Source of the DNA: Thermosynechococcus sp. HN-54
GTDB taxonomy: Bacteria > Cyanobacteriota > Cyanobacteriia > Thermosynechococcales > Thermosynechococcaceae
DNA: 64,000 bases
Direction of reading: 5' to 3'
Assembly (NCBI RefSeq): GCF_023650955.1
Contig: NZ_CP098039.1
Location: forward strand, 2,604,001 to 2,668,000
A model generated the notes under the pieces. It did not search any database. It had not been told where the DNA came from and saw only the letters and a list, made by a program, of their open reading frames with translations. This document shows positions 4,891-26,483 of this stretch, one piece after another; the stretch's first letter is position 1, and the number at the start of each line of letters is the position of its first letter. The position numbers were made by a program, and so were the translations under genes.

Positions 4891-6849
4891 ATGTGCGGCT
4901 TAGCCGGCTTCATCAATACGTCTTTTCTCCAAGATTGGCCAGCAGTCCTCCGTAAAATGATCACGACCCTTACCTATCGTGGCCCAGATGACGAAGGAAT
5001 ATGGGGGGATGAGGCTGCGGGCATTGCCCTAGGCCACCGTCGCCTAGCAATTCTTGATCTCTCGCCCGCTGGGCATCAGCCGATGCTTTCGGCGTGTGGT
5101 CGCTACGTTCTTGTCTTTAATGGTGAGATCTATAACCATCTCGAACTGCGTCAACAACTAACAGCTATTGGGGGAGCACCGTCTTGGCGGGGGCATTCCG
5201 ATACCGAGACGCTCCTAGCCGCCTTTGCCCATTGGGGTGTTGAAGAGACATTAAAACGTACGGTAGGAATGTTTGCCCTTGCCCTTTGGGATCGCAAGAC
5301 TCGTACATTAACCTTGGCAAGAGATCGCATAGGTGAAAAACCCCTTTACTATGGTTGGGTGAATGGAGCCTTGGTTTTTGCTTCAGAACTTAAAGCGATT
5401 CGAGCGTACCCTGAGTTTACAAACTCCATTAATCGCGATGCTCTAGCGCTTTATTTTCGCTACAGTTGGATTCCTGCTCCCTACAGTATCTATGAAAATA
5501 TTTGGAAGTTACCAGCAGGTACCTATCTCCAGTGGTCTGCTGAATCTCTCAGAGCCAACATTCAAGGGCGACCTCAAGCTTACTGGTCACTGCAAACCGT
5601 TATTGAAGAAGGACTAAGTCACCCCTTTCAGGGGACAGAAGCAGATGCCGCTACCGAATTAGAGTATCTTCTGCGGCAGAGTTTGCAAGGGCAACTATTG
5701 GCCGATGTTCCCTTAGGAGCTTTTCTATCGGGGGGATTAGATTCTTCAACCGTTGTAGCCTTAATGCAAAGCCTCTCTTCCCAGCCTGTTAAAACGTTTA
5801 CCATTGGCTTTTATGAAGATGCCTATAACGAAGCTCAATATGCCAAGGCGATCGCCCAACACTTGGGAACCAATCACACCGAATATTATCTAACGGGTCA
5901 AGAGGCGCGCGATGTAATTCCCAAACTCCCCCAGCTTTATGATGAACCCTTTGCTGATTCCTCTCAAATTCCTACCCATCTTGTGTCAGTGATCGCGCGC
6001 CGAGAGGTGACCGTTGCTCTTTCTGGAGATGGTGGTGATGAATTATTTGGGGGATACCACCGCTACTTTTTAGCACCCCTAATGTGGTGTCGCGTCCAAG
6101 GGATTCCTGAAAGTGGTCGTTGGCTCCTAAGAAATGTTCTGAATGTGCTTACGCCTACGCAATGGAATCAAGTGATGGGTGGCGTCAACCGCCTTTTACC
6201 TAGGCATTTACGGTACACAACGGTGGGTGACAGACTTGACAAACTGAGGAAACTCTTAACTGTAAACTCTCGTCAGCTTATGTACCTTTCCTTTTTATCC
6301 CAGTTCGATCCGCCCTCACGTTTAGTCATAGGCGCCAGTGAACCCACCTCATTAGCAACCTGTCCACCCGATGGACTCACAAAACTGCCCTTTGAGTCCT
6401 ATATGATGGCACTTGATCTTTTGACTTATCTTCCTGATGATATTCTTGTCAAGGTCGATCGCGCTGCCATGGGGGTTAGCCTTGAAACTCGTATTCCTTT
6501 TCTAGATCATCGAATTGTTGAGTTTGCTTGGACACTCCCACTTCAGATGAAAATCAGACAGGGGCAGGGTAAGCAAGTACTCCGTAAACTTTTGTATCGC
6601 TATGTCCCGCCACCTTTGATTGAGCGTCCTAAAATGGGATTTGGAATTCCCCTCTCTCAATGGCTACGCTCTGAACTACGCGACTGGGGATCAACTTTGT
6701 TAAATCCAACCCGTCTTAAGCAGGAGGGCTACCTGCAACCCAATCTAGTTTGGCAATACTGGCAAGAGCATCAAACAGGGAAACGCAATTGGGCAGGACA
6801 CCTATGGGAAATATTAATGTTTCAAGCGTGGTTAGAGCGCAGTTTCTAA
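4891..6849 (+). CDS. asnB: AsnB-like glutamine amidotransferase / asparagine synthetase in a polysaccharide cluster
   Basis: A 652-residue class II glutamine amidotransferase. It starts MCGLAGF, placing the nucleophile Cys2 at the mature N-terminus. The synthetase half carries the ATP pyrophosphatase P-loop LSGGLDSSTV and the later SGDGGDELFGGY motif. Family members make asparagine from aspartate. Longer AsnB-like proteins inside O-antigen or capsule clusters (WbpS type) are known or proposed to amidate sugar uronic acids. This gene is followed after 11 bp by a polysaccharide polymerase and then by uronic-acid nucleotide-sugar genes. I infer a sugar-amidating role, though plain asparagine synthesis cannot be excluded. 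Confidence 0.85.
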   Translation: MCGLAGFINTSFLQDWPAVLRKMITTLTYRGPDDEGIWGDEAAGIALGHRRLAILDLSPAGHQPMLSACGRYVLVFNGEIYNHLELRQQLTAIGGAPSWRGHSDTETLLAAFAHWGVEETLKRTVGMFALALWDRKTRTLTLARDRIGEKPLYYGWVNGALVFASELKAIRAYPEFTNSINRDALALYFRYSWIPAPYSIYENIWKLPAGTYLQWSAESLRANIQGRPQAYWSLQTVIEEGLSHPFQGTEADAATELEYLLRQSLQGQLLADVPLGAFLSGGLDSSTVVALMQSLSSQPVKTFTIGFYEDAYNEAQYAKAIAQHLGTNHTEYYLTGQEARDVIPKLPQLYDEPFADSSQIPTHLVSVIARREVTVALSGDGGDELFGGYHRYFLAPLMWCRVQGIPESGRWLLRNVLNVLTPTQWNQVMGGVNRLLPRHLRYTTVGDRLDKLRKLLTVNSRQLMYLSFLSQFDPPSRLVIGASEPTSLATCPPDGLTKLPFESYMMALDLLTYLPDDILVKVDRAAMGVSLETRIPFLDHRIVEFAWTLPLQMKIRQGQGKQVLRKLLYRYVPPPLIERPKMGFGIPLSQWLRSELRDWGSTLLNPTRLKQEGYLQPNLVWQYWQEHQTGKRNWAGHLWEILMFQAWLERSF

Positions 6850-22717: not shown

Positions 22718-23173
22718 CTAGGCCAGACCAAATTCCTGCAATGCTGGCCAAAAATTGCGATTCTCATGGCCGGGCTGGCTGAGCTTCACAAGGGCAAAGC
22801 GTTGTAGGGGAGTCAGAGCCGCCCATTTCTCCACCGTCAGGCTGTGGTGGGATACCTTGGTCAGTTGTTGTTGCACGGTCTCTGGCAGTTCGGTGGTGAT
22901 GTCCCAAGGATAGGGTTGGGGAATCTCTAAATCACTGGGGGGGGCACCATGATTGTGGGTCACCCAATCTCGCAGTTGTTGGCGATAGTGTGCCTGATCT
23001 TCTGGAGTGTCACAGGGAGTCACCACAAGCCATTGCCGCTGCTCTTGGGAGAGTTGATGCCAGTGGAGCAACTTCAGCTTGACCCCACACAGATCCAGCT
23101 TGTAGCGAACAATCATTGGAATACAGCGCAATGAAGCCGTGAACTCAGCTTCAAAGTCAAAAAAGTAGGACAT
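22718..23173 (-). CDS. narM: Nitrate reductase-associated protein NarM
   Basis: A 151-residue soluble protein starting MSYFFDFEAEFTASLRCIPM, with the family segment LHWHQLSQEQRQWLV near residue 38. It belongs to the nitrate reductase-associated family; NarM is required for a functional NarB in cyanobacteria, possibly in assembly or electron delivery. It is the last gene of the nir operon, 36 bp after narB. No terminator is evident in the 4-bp gap to the converging transporter gene, so transcripts from the two sides probably overlap. Confidence 0.9.
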   Translation of the reverse strand: MSYFFDFEAEFTASLRCIPMIVRYKLDLCGVKLKLLHWHQLSQEQRQWLVVTPCDTPEDQAHYRQQLRDWVTHNHGAPPSDLEIPQPYPWDITTELPETVQQQLTKVSHHSLTVEKWAALTPLQRFALVKLSQPGHENRNFWPALQEFGLA

Positions 23174-23209: not shown

Positions 23210-25633
23210 TCATTGCTTGAGAGCAATACCACTTTCCTGCACGGTGGGGGTATAGGGCGTCTGTCGCAATTTTAAGGGCAGCACCTGCACCGCACAGGCT
23301 TTGAGTTCTGGCTGCTGCGACACTGGACAGGCAATGGGGTGGGTCAGTTGGTTTGCCTCACCACTATCGGCAAAGAGAAAGCCCCAGTGCATAGGCACAA
23401 AGAGGGTTCCCGGACGAATTGCCTTGGTGAGGATGACCGGCAGGCACACTTGACCGCGGCGCGATCGCACCTCTACCCAATCCCCGTCTTTGAGATGCAA
23501 GTTTGCGGCATCGTCGGGGTGCATTTCCACAAAGGGATCGGGGTGCATTTTTTGAATTTTGGCAATGCGACCGGTACGGGTTTGCGTGTGCCAGTGACCG
23601 TAGAGGCGACCCGTCGTCAGGGTAAAGCTGTAGATGTCATCGGTCGGTTCAGCCACCCCTTGACTATGAGCAAGGCAAAAACGTGCCCGTTGATCAGGGG
23701 TGTGAAATCGCCAATCGGTATAGAGGCGTTTGGGCTTACGGGCTTCTTCATCACTGGTACCCGCCGGGCAGGGCCATTGTAGAGCGCCTAAACGGGCTAA
23801 TCGCTCGTGACTCAGACCCGATTGATCGCAGGGACGACCGGCAGTGAGTTGCACAAATTCGGCATAGACAGCAGCGGCATCGGCAAAGTTAAAGAGACGC
23901 TCATACCCCAAGCGGCGACCCACCTCGGCAAAAATTTCCCAATCGGCACGGGCAACCCCCGGCGGGGAGCGAAAGGCGGGGGCAAGGGTGACACGGCGCT
24001 CGGAGTTGGTCATGACACCGGTTTTCTCACTCCATTGAGCTGCCGGCAAAATCAAGTGGGCATAGGCTGCCGTCTCCGTGGGAAAGTAGGCATCCTGATA
24101 AACGGTAAAGGGAGATTTGAGAAAGGCCGCCTTGGCACGCTCTAAATGGGGGAAGCTCACCGCAGGATTGGTGGCAGCAATCCACAATAAGCCAACCTCC
24201 CCTCGTTCCAAACCTTCGACAATTTGCCAAGCGGTACGACCGGGGCGATCGCTAATTTGCCCTCGCGGCAGCCCCCAAAAGTCCTCCACCTCTTGGCGAT
24301 GCTGGGGATTCGTCACTTGGCGATAGCCCGGCAGCAAATGGCTTAACCCCCCCGCTTCGCGTCCTCCCATGGCATTGGGTTGCCCTGTCAGTGAAAAGGG
24401 GCCACTCCCTGGGCGGCCAATTTGCCCCGTCAATAGGTGGAGGTTAATGAGACAGCGGGCTTTCGCCGTCCCTTCAGCGGATTGGTTAATGCCCATTGAC
24501 CAGAGGGAGAGTACTGCTTGGGCATGACCCCAATAGCGAGCTGCCTGTTCGAGATCGCCTTGAGCAATGCCACACCGTTCTGCCACCCATTCTGGGGTGT
24601 AGGCTGCTAGCAGCTTTACATACTCGGCAAAGCCCTCAGTACACTCCTCAATGAACTCCGCATCGATCTGTCCCCATTGCAGCAGCAGGTGGCCAATGCC
24701 GTGGAGCAAGTCAATGTCGGTACCTGGTCGAATCGCAAGGTGGAGATCTGCGACTTCTGCTGTGGGGGTGCGCCGCGGATCCACAACAATCAACTTGACG
24801 CGGCGATCGCGCTTGTGGTGGTTGCGCAGACGATTAAAGACAATGGGGTGGCATTCAGCAGTATTGGTGCCAATCAAAAAGGCACAATCGGTGGCCTCTA
24901 AATCGTCGTAGCAGCAAGGCGGACCATCGGCACCGAAGCTAGCCATGTAGGCAGACACCGCCGAGGACATGCACAAGCGGGAATTGGCATCAAAGTTGTT
25001 TGTACCGAGGCACCCCTTCAGGAGTTTCTGTGCCACGTAGTAGTCTTCGGTTTGAAATTGCCCGGAACCGTACATACAAATGGCGTCAGCCCCCTGCTGA
25101 CGGCGCACCCATTCGATGCGTTCCACAAGGCGGGTCATGGCCTCGTCCCAAGAAATTACGGTAAAGGGCTGATCCAGTCGCTCTCGCCAGAGGGGATAGG
25201 CCAAGCGATCGCGATCAAGGGCTTCCAAAATCGTTGCCCCCTTGACACAGACCATGCCTTGGGAGGAGGGATGCTGGCGATCGCCGCGAATTTTATAGCT
25301 CCCCTTACCTTGGGGGACTGCTTCCAAGCCACAACCGACGCCGCAGTAGGGACACAGGGAGGACACAGGCTCAGTTGGTTCAGGCACCGAACGGCCTTTT
25401 TCCTCAATCCGTAGGGATTCACAGGGACAGCACCTGACCCCTTGCTCCGAGGAAATGATCAGATCCGCTGTGGCATCACCATGGAACAAAAGCTGCTGCC
25501 CCGGAAACACCACCCGTTGCCACGTGGGCTGATTTGACAAGTAAATCTGCTGAATGCTGTCGCTAGTGTTGCGGTAGTAGCAGAGGTAACGACTGGACTG
25601 GACGGCCAACGAGCCAACCCGTGGGGTACTCAT
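23210..25633 (-). CDS. narB: Ferredoxin-nitrate reductase with an N-terminal DUF1830-like domain
   Basis: Reduces nitrate to nitrite in the cytoplasm using ferredoxin. The molybdopterin oxidoreductase part has the 4Fe-4S ligands C94, C97, C101 and C129 ([12 protein letters not shown] and GMVCVKG), a molybdenum-ligand cysteine in NSRLCMSS, and the C-terminal molydopterin dinucleotide domain. About 85 residues precede the cluster motif, unlike ordinary NarB, where that motif lies close to the N-terminus. This extension ([16 protein letters not shown], then [13 protein letters not shown], then CCPCESLRI) resembles the small cyanobacterial DUF1830 family. The ATG at 25633 lies 7 bp after nrtD and is preceded by AGAGAG. 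The protein has 807 residues, against about 730 usual. Confidence 0.93.
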
Positions 25634-25640
25634 ACTCTCT

Positions 25641-26456
25641 CTAGTGCCCAAACCGCGTGTACAAAAAGTCAACTACTTGGTTGCGGAGATGGTAGTACTG
25701 CGGATCCTCAAGGAGTTGCGATCGCCGCCGTGGCCGCGGAAAAGGAATTTTCAAAATATCGCCAATGCGAGCGGCAGGGCCATTGGTCATCATCACCACT
25801 CGATCCGCTAGGTACAGCGCTTCATCAATGTCGTGGGTAATCATCAATACCGTCAGGCGGTGGCTGCGCCAAATTTTCAGGAGTTCATCCTGCAACTCCT
25901 CTTTGGTAATGGCATCGAGAGCACCAAAGGGTTCGTCTAAAATCAACACTTCAGGGCGAATCGCAAGGGCACGGGCAATGGCCACCCGCTGTTTCATCCC
26001 CCCCGAAAGTTGGGCAGGGCGCTTATGGGCAGCCGCCGTAAGTCCCACCAGTTCCAAATGCTCCTCCACAATTTGGCGGCGCCGTTGCCGAGTCTTCTGC
26101 GGATAAACCGCCTTCACTGCCAGCTCGATGTTCTGGTAGGCGGTCAACCAAGGCAGCAGCGCATAGTTTTGAAACACCATCATGCGATCAGGCCCCGGAC
26201 GACGCACAGGCACGCCATTGAGGGTAATTTCCCCTTGTGTTGGCGCTGTAAAACCCGCAACCATATTCAGGAGGGTGGTTTTGCCACAGCCAGAATGGCC
26301 AATGAAACAAACAAATTCCCCACTACTCACCTCAAGGTGAATGTCCTCCAGCACCACATGGGTGCCATTGGCACTAGGGTAAGACTTGCTCACCCCTTCA
26401 ATACGCAGGTGTTGGGTAGCAGTCAGGCGAGGGTCAAGACGATAGAGGGTTTCCAT
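25641..26456 (-). CDS. nrtD: Nitrate/nitrite ABC transporter ATPase NrtD
   Basis: The simple ATPase subunit of the nitrate/nitrite importer. Walker A is GHSGCGKTT, the signature is LSGGMKQR, and Walker B is [12 protein letters not shown] followed by the switch histidine in MITHDIDEA. It is about 271 residues from the ATG at 26456; an in-frame TTG at 26480 would lengthen it by eight residues. It pairs with NrtC on the cytoplasmic side of NrtB. Unlike NrtC it has no sensor domain. It is flanked by nrtC and narB in the usual cyanobacterial order. Confidence 0.94.
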
Positions 26457-26483
26457 AGGGTGCGATTCGGTAAAGGACAAAAC

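Follow-up and report, generated by a model that had tools for sequence, protein, structure and literature searches.

The narB gene in the window (the whole stretch of 64,000 nucleotides of Thermosynechococcus sp. HN-54 DNA that we analysed) encodes a nitrate reductase with a DUF1830 domain at its N-terminus. We consider it reasonably probable that this domain is PirN, fused in frame to the enzyme, where it would be a direct partner that stabilises NarB or relays PII signals to it. PirN (Ssl2814) of Synechocystis sp. PCC 6803 likewise belongs to DUF1830; its gene is flanked by those of the nitrate transporter and by narB, and the available portion of a 2026 report (PMC13205821) ties the protein to NarB abundance. 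There it is a separate small protein, proposed to reside partly in the thylakoid lumen with PsbO (PMC13205821), whereas the fused domain forms the front end of NarB itself. The parts are known, as is their functional link in Synechocystis, and the fused form is in no paper that we found: a search of the open-access literature, without supplements, returned no published report of PirN and NarB as one protein, and domain databases may list the architecture. The sequence-only reading of this DNA had described DUF1830 as unknown, which no longer wholly holds, since PirC/CfrA and PirN are studied members. It had also proposed that the fusion links DUF1830 to nitrate reduction, and this idea gains from the PirN type of the domain and from the published role of PirN in NarB abundance (PMC13205821).

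Layout and predicted fold of the NarB N-terminus

When residues 1-97 were searched against Pfam, they matched PF08865 (DUF1830) with an E value of 1.3e-10 and 41.5 bits (gathering score 25), in agreement with the resemblance first noticed by eye. The match covers NarB residues 18-75 and profile positions 1-65 of 66, indicating a full-length domain with limits close to the residues 13-76 or so suggested from the sequence; the interval given for it then, 25338-25633, does contain the domain (25409-25582) but runs a few codons into the CPYCGVGC motif. With the whole of NarB as query, DUF1830 scored 36.6 bits, and the iron-sulphur, molybdopterin and dinucleotide-binding domains were found from residue 90 onward. 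Better matches to DUF1830 come from two further fused proteins, with E values of 3.8e-19 (G016) and 2.5e-16 (G018). By its sequence the enzyme is NarB, the ferredoxin nitrate reductase, ferredoxin use being predicted; it displays the CPYCGVGC cluster motif and the molybdopterin domains, and lies in a nitrate operon context. The coordinates are collected in Table 1. The Nitr_red_assoc gene also follows narB in G100, G018 and G174, and lies about 1 kb after narB in G016 (tblastn search for neighbours).

Table 1. Features of the fused narB gene and its neighbours in the window
Feature	Position	Strand	Evidence
narB, fused PirN-NarB (PirN identity probable), 807 aa + stop	23210..25633	-	Pfam DUF1830, Molybdop_Fe4S4, Molybdopterin, Molydop_binding
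N-terminal leader, residues 1-17, strongly conserved	25583..25633	-	dN/dS 0.00-0.12, residues 1-16
DUF1830 / PirN-type domain, residues 18-75	25409..25582	-	PF08865 E 1.3e-10, AlphaFold2, tree
Linker, residues 76-93, length and sequence variable among fused proteins	25355..25408	-	alignment, dN/dS
Catalytic NarB, residues 94-807, from CPYCGVGC iron-sulphur motif	23213..25354	-	Pfam, structure match 2nap
nrtD (ATPase gene of the nitrate transporter), immediately upstream of narB	25641..26480	-	sequence and operon context, not profile search
Nitr_red_assoc (PF09655), directly downstream of narB	22718..23173	-	profile search, E 6e-59

Ordinary cyanobacterial NarB proteins have the same catalytic domains, and the window's protein is 65-70% identical to 31 aligned plain NarBs. 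The difference lies in the start: the CPYCGVGC motif begins at residue 94 of the window's protein, and plain NarBs start about 8 residues before it, against 93 here. This count, in which the plain start is an ATG at most 40 codons upstream, as in most of the 78 complete genes among 80 named narB loci, agrees with the earlier remark that NarB normally begins near the motif.

AlphaFold2 modelled residues 1-93 with a mean pLDDT of 79.9 and block means of 92-96 over residues 21-70, and the DUF1830 domain is predicted to fold alone as a compact six-stranded beta domain. Foldseek returned no PDB match to this model at E <=0.001 (best 0.058). The top VIA-align hit, at Z 6.3 (rmsd 2.7, 59 aligned), was a designed protein; VHL and further beta domains followed at about Z 5. 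A sequence search of the domain against the PDB yielded nothing, and its profile gave chance-level matches only (best E 0.065). We read the predicted fold as a common beta arrangement for which no clear PDB relative was found. In the full-length model, residues 85-787 superimposed on Desulfovibrio periplasmic NapA (2nap) with Z 42.4 and rmsd 3.9 over 652 aligned residues; since the match spans these residues only, the first 80 residues of NarB are extra. NapA thus shares the catalytic fold and has no counterpart to the DUF1830 part, and its physiological role differs from that of NarB. Residues 1-83 had pLDDT <50 in the full-length model, giving no placement of the domain on NarB. The short loop between the cluster motif and RGD (13-16) in the fused proteins was dropped as a sign of fusion, since plain NarBs have short loops too.

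Distribution and history of the fusion

The window's family was represented by 29 genomes, 26 of which contain narB at E 1e-100 or better, and the fused frame was found in seven of these 26. Five (the window's own genome G000, G019, G020, G022 and G026) are among the eight narB-bearing genomes of the window's genus, and the other two, G016 and G018, belong to two other genera of the family. The fusion, which the sequence-only reading thought either confined to Thermosynechococcus or wider, is thus slightly wider than the genus; beyond the family, one genome (G174) has a seemingly decayed form with the leader but without the domain. No narB was found at E 1e-100 in three of the 11 genomes of the genus (G023, G024, G027), which are drafts. 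The nir-nrtABCD-narB operon is described as conserved in all Thermosynechococcus genomes examined in PMC9403480, in the part of that paper available.

Two broader samples contained no fusion. Among 80 named narB loci the count was zero, with a free DUF1830 gene just upstream of narB in six; one locus (L119) has <200 bases upstream of narB, and another (L080), with a tblastn match starting at residue 16, had no DUF1830 frame. Phylum-wide, narB was present at 1e-150 or better in 155 of 386 genomes, and the 144 stretches taken upstream of it again contained no fusion; in seven of them narB is directly preceded by a free DUF1830 gene, and in 137 it is not. These 144 stretches include G011, from the window's family, and G174; four are without a CPYCGxGC motif in the stretch, and G180 and G393 end early at contig ends. 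Of the 11 remaining genomes, five are in the family set (G000, G018, G022, G025, G028) and six were left out. The sets overlap, with L124 and G012, L138 and G084, and L064 and G207, for example, looking like the same records. Within the family set, a free DUF1830 gene stands directly before narB in G009, G010 and G012.

A tree of NarB proteins unites every fused gene and the domain-less relatives in a single clade (100/99); G016 and G018, which group with each other (94/93), branch outside the window's genus. The simplest reading of these sequences is a single fusion followed by losses of the domain, which would have occurred in at least three lineages, a number obtained by parsimony with some within-genus forks open. 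The domain is missing from the otherwise intact NarB of G021 with G025, of G028 and of G174, indicating that NarB can do without it. Before the enzyme, G021 has only MLTPVSSL and G025 only MPTPATPVSSL, and the 36-residue extension of G028 consists of the leader, with the remnant ALAVQS, and a stump of the domain. G174, a member of another family, carries the leader remnant GSLALQ without the domain; its NarB is 86% identical to the window's, and its whole nitrate operon (L307) 79-87%. Because the G174 NarB sits inside the fused clade, at 100/100 with the window's genus, its operon was likely acquired by gene transfer, with a third loss of the domain.

Probable kinship of the fused domain with PirN

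We take sll1450-1453 of Synechocystis to be nrtABCD and sll1454 to be narB. The pirN gene (ssl2814) is reported with sll1450-1453 upstream and sll1454 downstream (PMC13205821), and the fused domain lies between nrtD and catalytic narB, which is the position reported for pirN, directly upstream of narB. The order nrtD, DUF1830 gene, narB was found in six of the 144 phylum-wide stretches (G100, G104, G116, G207, G309, G084) and also in G012 and the named loci L064, L082, L113, L136 and L138. In G055 an nrtP-like gene, and not nrtD, precedes the DUF1830 gene and narB, and nrtD was not found in the stretch searched in G009 and G010. G100, G104 and G116 each contain a PirC-type DUF1830 match and a second one beside narB; we infer that these genomes are Synechocystis-like, and in our PirN assignment they stand in for Ssl2814 by gene order. 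Fused genomes also differ in the transporter encoded upstream: the window's genus has nrtD, whereas G016 and, by eye, G018 have an MFS transporter. The PirN-type domain therefore accompanies narB rather than the transporter.

A tree of the domains points the same way. One clade (97/95), separate from PirC, holds all seven fused domains together with the genes beside narB in G018, G100, G104 and G116. The AU test rejected a placement of the fused domains with PirC (p-AU 0.001) and did not reject one common origin for the fused group (p-AU 0.53). The PirN-type identity of the fused domain rests on this tree and AU test; scores against a pirN profile are circular, the profile having been trained on such rows, and are no proof of identity, and the phylum-wide matches were also found with another profile. 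The tree comprises 81 domains and leaves out identical PirC rows, duplicate loci, L003 and domains of <45 residues. Because it has 66 columns, joins long branches and has an unsettled bootstrap, it serves as a guide rather than as proof. The 97/95 clade takes in four of the 14 narB-adjacent genes and leaves out the other ten, and a grouping of the full set with the fused domains received weak support (53/89), so adjacency to narB alone does not make a gene PirN.

PirC/CfrA (Sll0944) is also a DUF1830 protein and PII partner, which binds PII and inhibits PGAM (PMC12077085, PMC7760959, as far as their available text goes). It differs from the fused domain by this inhibition, by its tree position and by an MMASAILSD-like segment, which is common to the PirC rows and missing from the fused domains; the fused domain neither groups with PirC nor has the segment. 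The loops of the fused domain are also shorter than those of PirC in the alignment.

Four further observations concern individual genomes. In G018, a free PirN-type gene (L041:1129-1422) stands in tandem before the fused gene (L041:1435-3939), and the free and fused domains pair in the domain tree (87/76). The PirN-type protein of G100 (L306:5092-5358) displays no hydrophobic signal peptide by eye, which is odd given the lumen location reported for PirN. In Leptolyngbyaceae cyanobacterium C42_A2020_001, a broken DUF1830-like stretch, FEAIPDALLEIHT, lies between nrtD-like sequence and narB (L130, about 4980-5070) and is perhaps a pirN pseudogene. Finally, a 423-residue frame in G207 (L269:505-1773) combines CHAT, TRADD-like_N and a PirC-like DUF1830, a second kind of DUF1830 fusion that may be an assembly error.

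Proposed role of the tethered domain

The narB ATG lies 3 or 7 bases after the nrtD stop codon in all eight narB-bearing genomes of the window's genus (7 in the window). When the five fused genes of the genus were compared pairwise (ten pairs), dN/dS came to 0.00-0.12 over residues 1-16, to 0.10-0.35 over residues 17-76 and to 0.15-0.59 over the linker (residues 77-93; nine of the ten pairs, the tenth not being computable), compared with 0.03-0.06 for the catalytic part. Since dN/dS is low in the extension, we conclude from these codon comparisons that the DUF1830 domain of NarB is translated and under constraint, which is weaker than that on the enzyme. The hallmark residues of DUF1830 (two end cysteines, N, Q and FP) are present, and C18, N22, Q28, F43, P44, F50 and C71 are invariant among the seven fused and six stand-alone narB-adjacent homologues aligned.

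The 18-residue linker between the DUF1830 domain and the first cluster cysteine runs up to the cluster motif, which should place the domain close to the iron-sulphur domain, the presumed docking site of ferredoxin. From there the DUF1830 domain would help NarB to fold or accumulate and offer a handle for PII, by which nitrate reduction would follow the cell's nitrogen and carbon status. As reported in the accessible sections of PMC13205821, loss of PirN in Synechocystis lowers NarB protein and not narB mRNA, and PirN interacts with both PII and PsbO. The explanation preferred there is an effect on the translation of narB, with stability left open; extracts with and without PirN did not differ in an in vitro degradation test. 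The fusion would imply that PirN acts on NarB by direct contact, in a 1:1 ratio and in the cytoplasm, and a fused NarB should not reach the thylakoid lumen. We therefore favour a module that stabilises NarB and docks PII; from the sequence, a regulatory or docking module, as the sequence-only reading had imagined, is plausible. A bolder version, which we advance only tentatively, is that PirN is a NarB subunit, that the fusion makes nitrate reductase a direct PII client and that the role in the lumen with PsbO is secondary. If NarB were such a client, 2-oxoglutarate and energy state would act on the enzyme itself to gate the initial step of nitrate reduction.

The main rival is that overlapping, translationally coupled pirN and narB genes were joined by a frameshift, PirN acting on narB translation or elsewhere, so that the tethered domain adds little. 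Because the domain has been lost repeatedly, this is credible, although we judge it rather unlikely. In G104, G012 (L124), G084 (L138) and L082 the DUF1830 gene and the likely start of narB overlap, which would make such a junction easy to reach, and the published model of PirN favours translation (PMC13205821). Yet dN/dS is well below 1 over residues 17-76 in all ten pairs, the domain is found in seven genomes of three genera, and the seven invariant residues listed above have been kept. Moreover, a Synechocystis narB placed elsewhere still needed >20 times more mRNA without PirN (PMC13205821), suggesting that coupling in cis is not the whole story.

That the domain is a redox sensor using cysteines 68, 69 and 71, which the sequence-only reading had called extra, we regard as very improbable. 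Redox effects on NarB are raised as a possibility in PMC13205821, G022 matches the window's protein in carrying C68 as well as C69, and of the two G020 carries C69. Among the seven fused proteins, however, C68 occurs in two and C69 in three, being absent from five and four respectively, and conservation lends the idea no support. C71 is found in all seven and, like C18, in nearly all aligned DUF1830 rows; invariant in the stand-alone homologues as well, these two cysteines belong to the domain and are not additions to it.

Two explanations can be set aside as scarcely conceivable. A captured PirC, tying PGAM, a glycolytic enzyme, or carbon status to nitrate reductase, might be imagined from the PirC-type DUF1830 gene in the window's own genome, but a PirC origin is rejected by the AU test and by the missing MMASAILSD-like segment. 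Equally remote is a mis-called start, with translation beginning near CPYCGVGC and the upstream frame untranslated: a GTG at codon 90, four codons before the motif, occurs in the window, G022, G020 and G019, but it is GTT in G026 and G016, codon comparison of the fused genes found no start codon near the motif common to all, and purifying selection at codon level over residues 1-76, in a frame open in seven genomes, leads us to reject this reading.

With domain and enzyme joined in one protein, the proposed action of PirN is open to a simple test, for which natural genomes without the domain are ready-made controls. The fused form, if kept from the thylakoid lumen as we expect, bears on the published PsbO model. 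Finally, PirN may control NarB through translation or stability, directly or indirectly, and the natural fusion points to direct contact.
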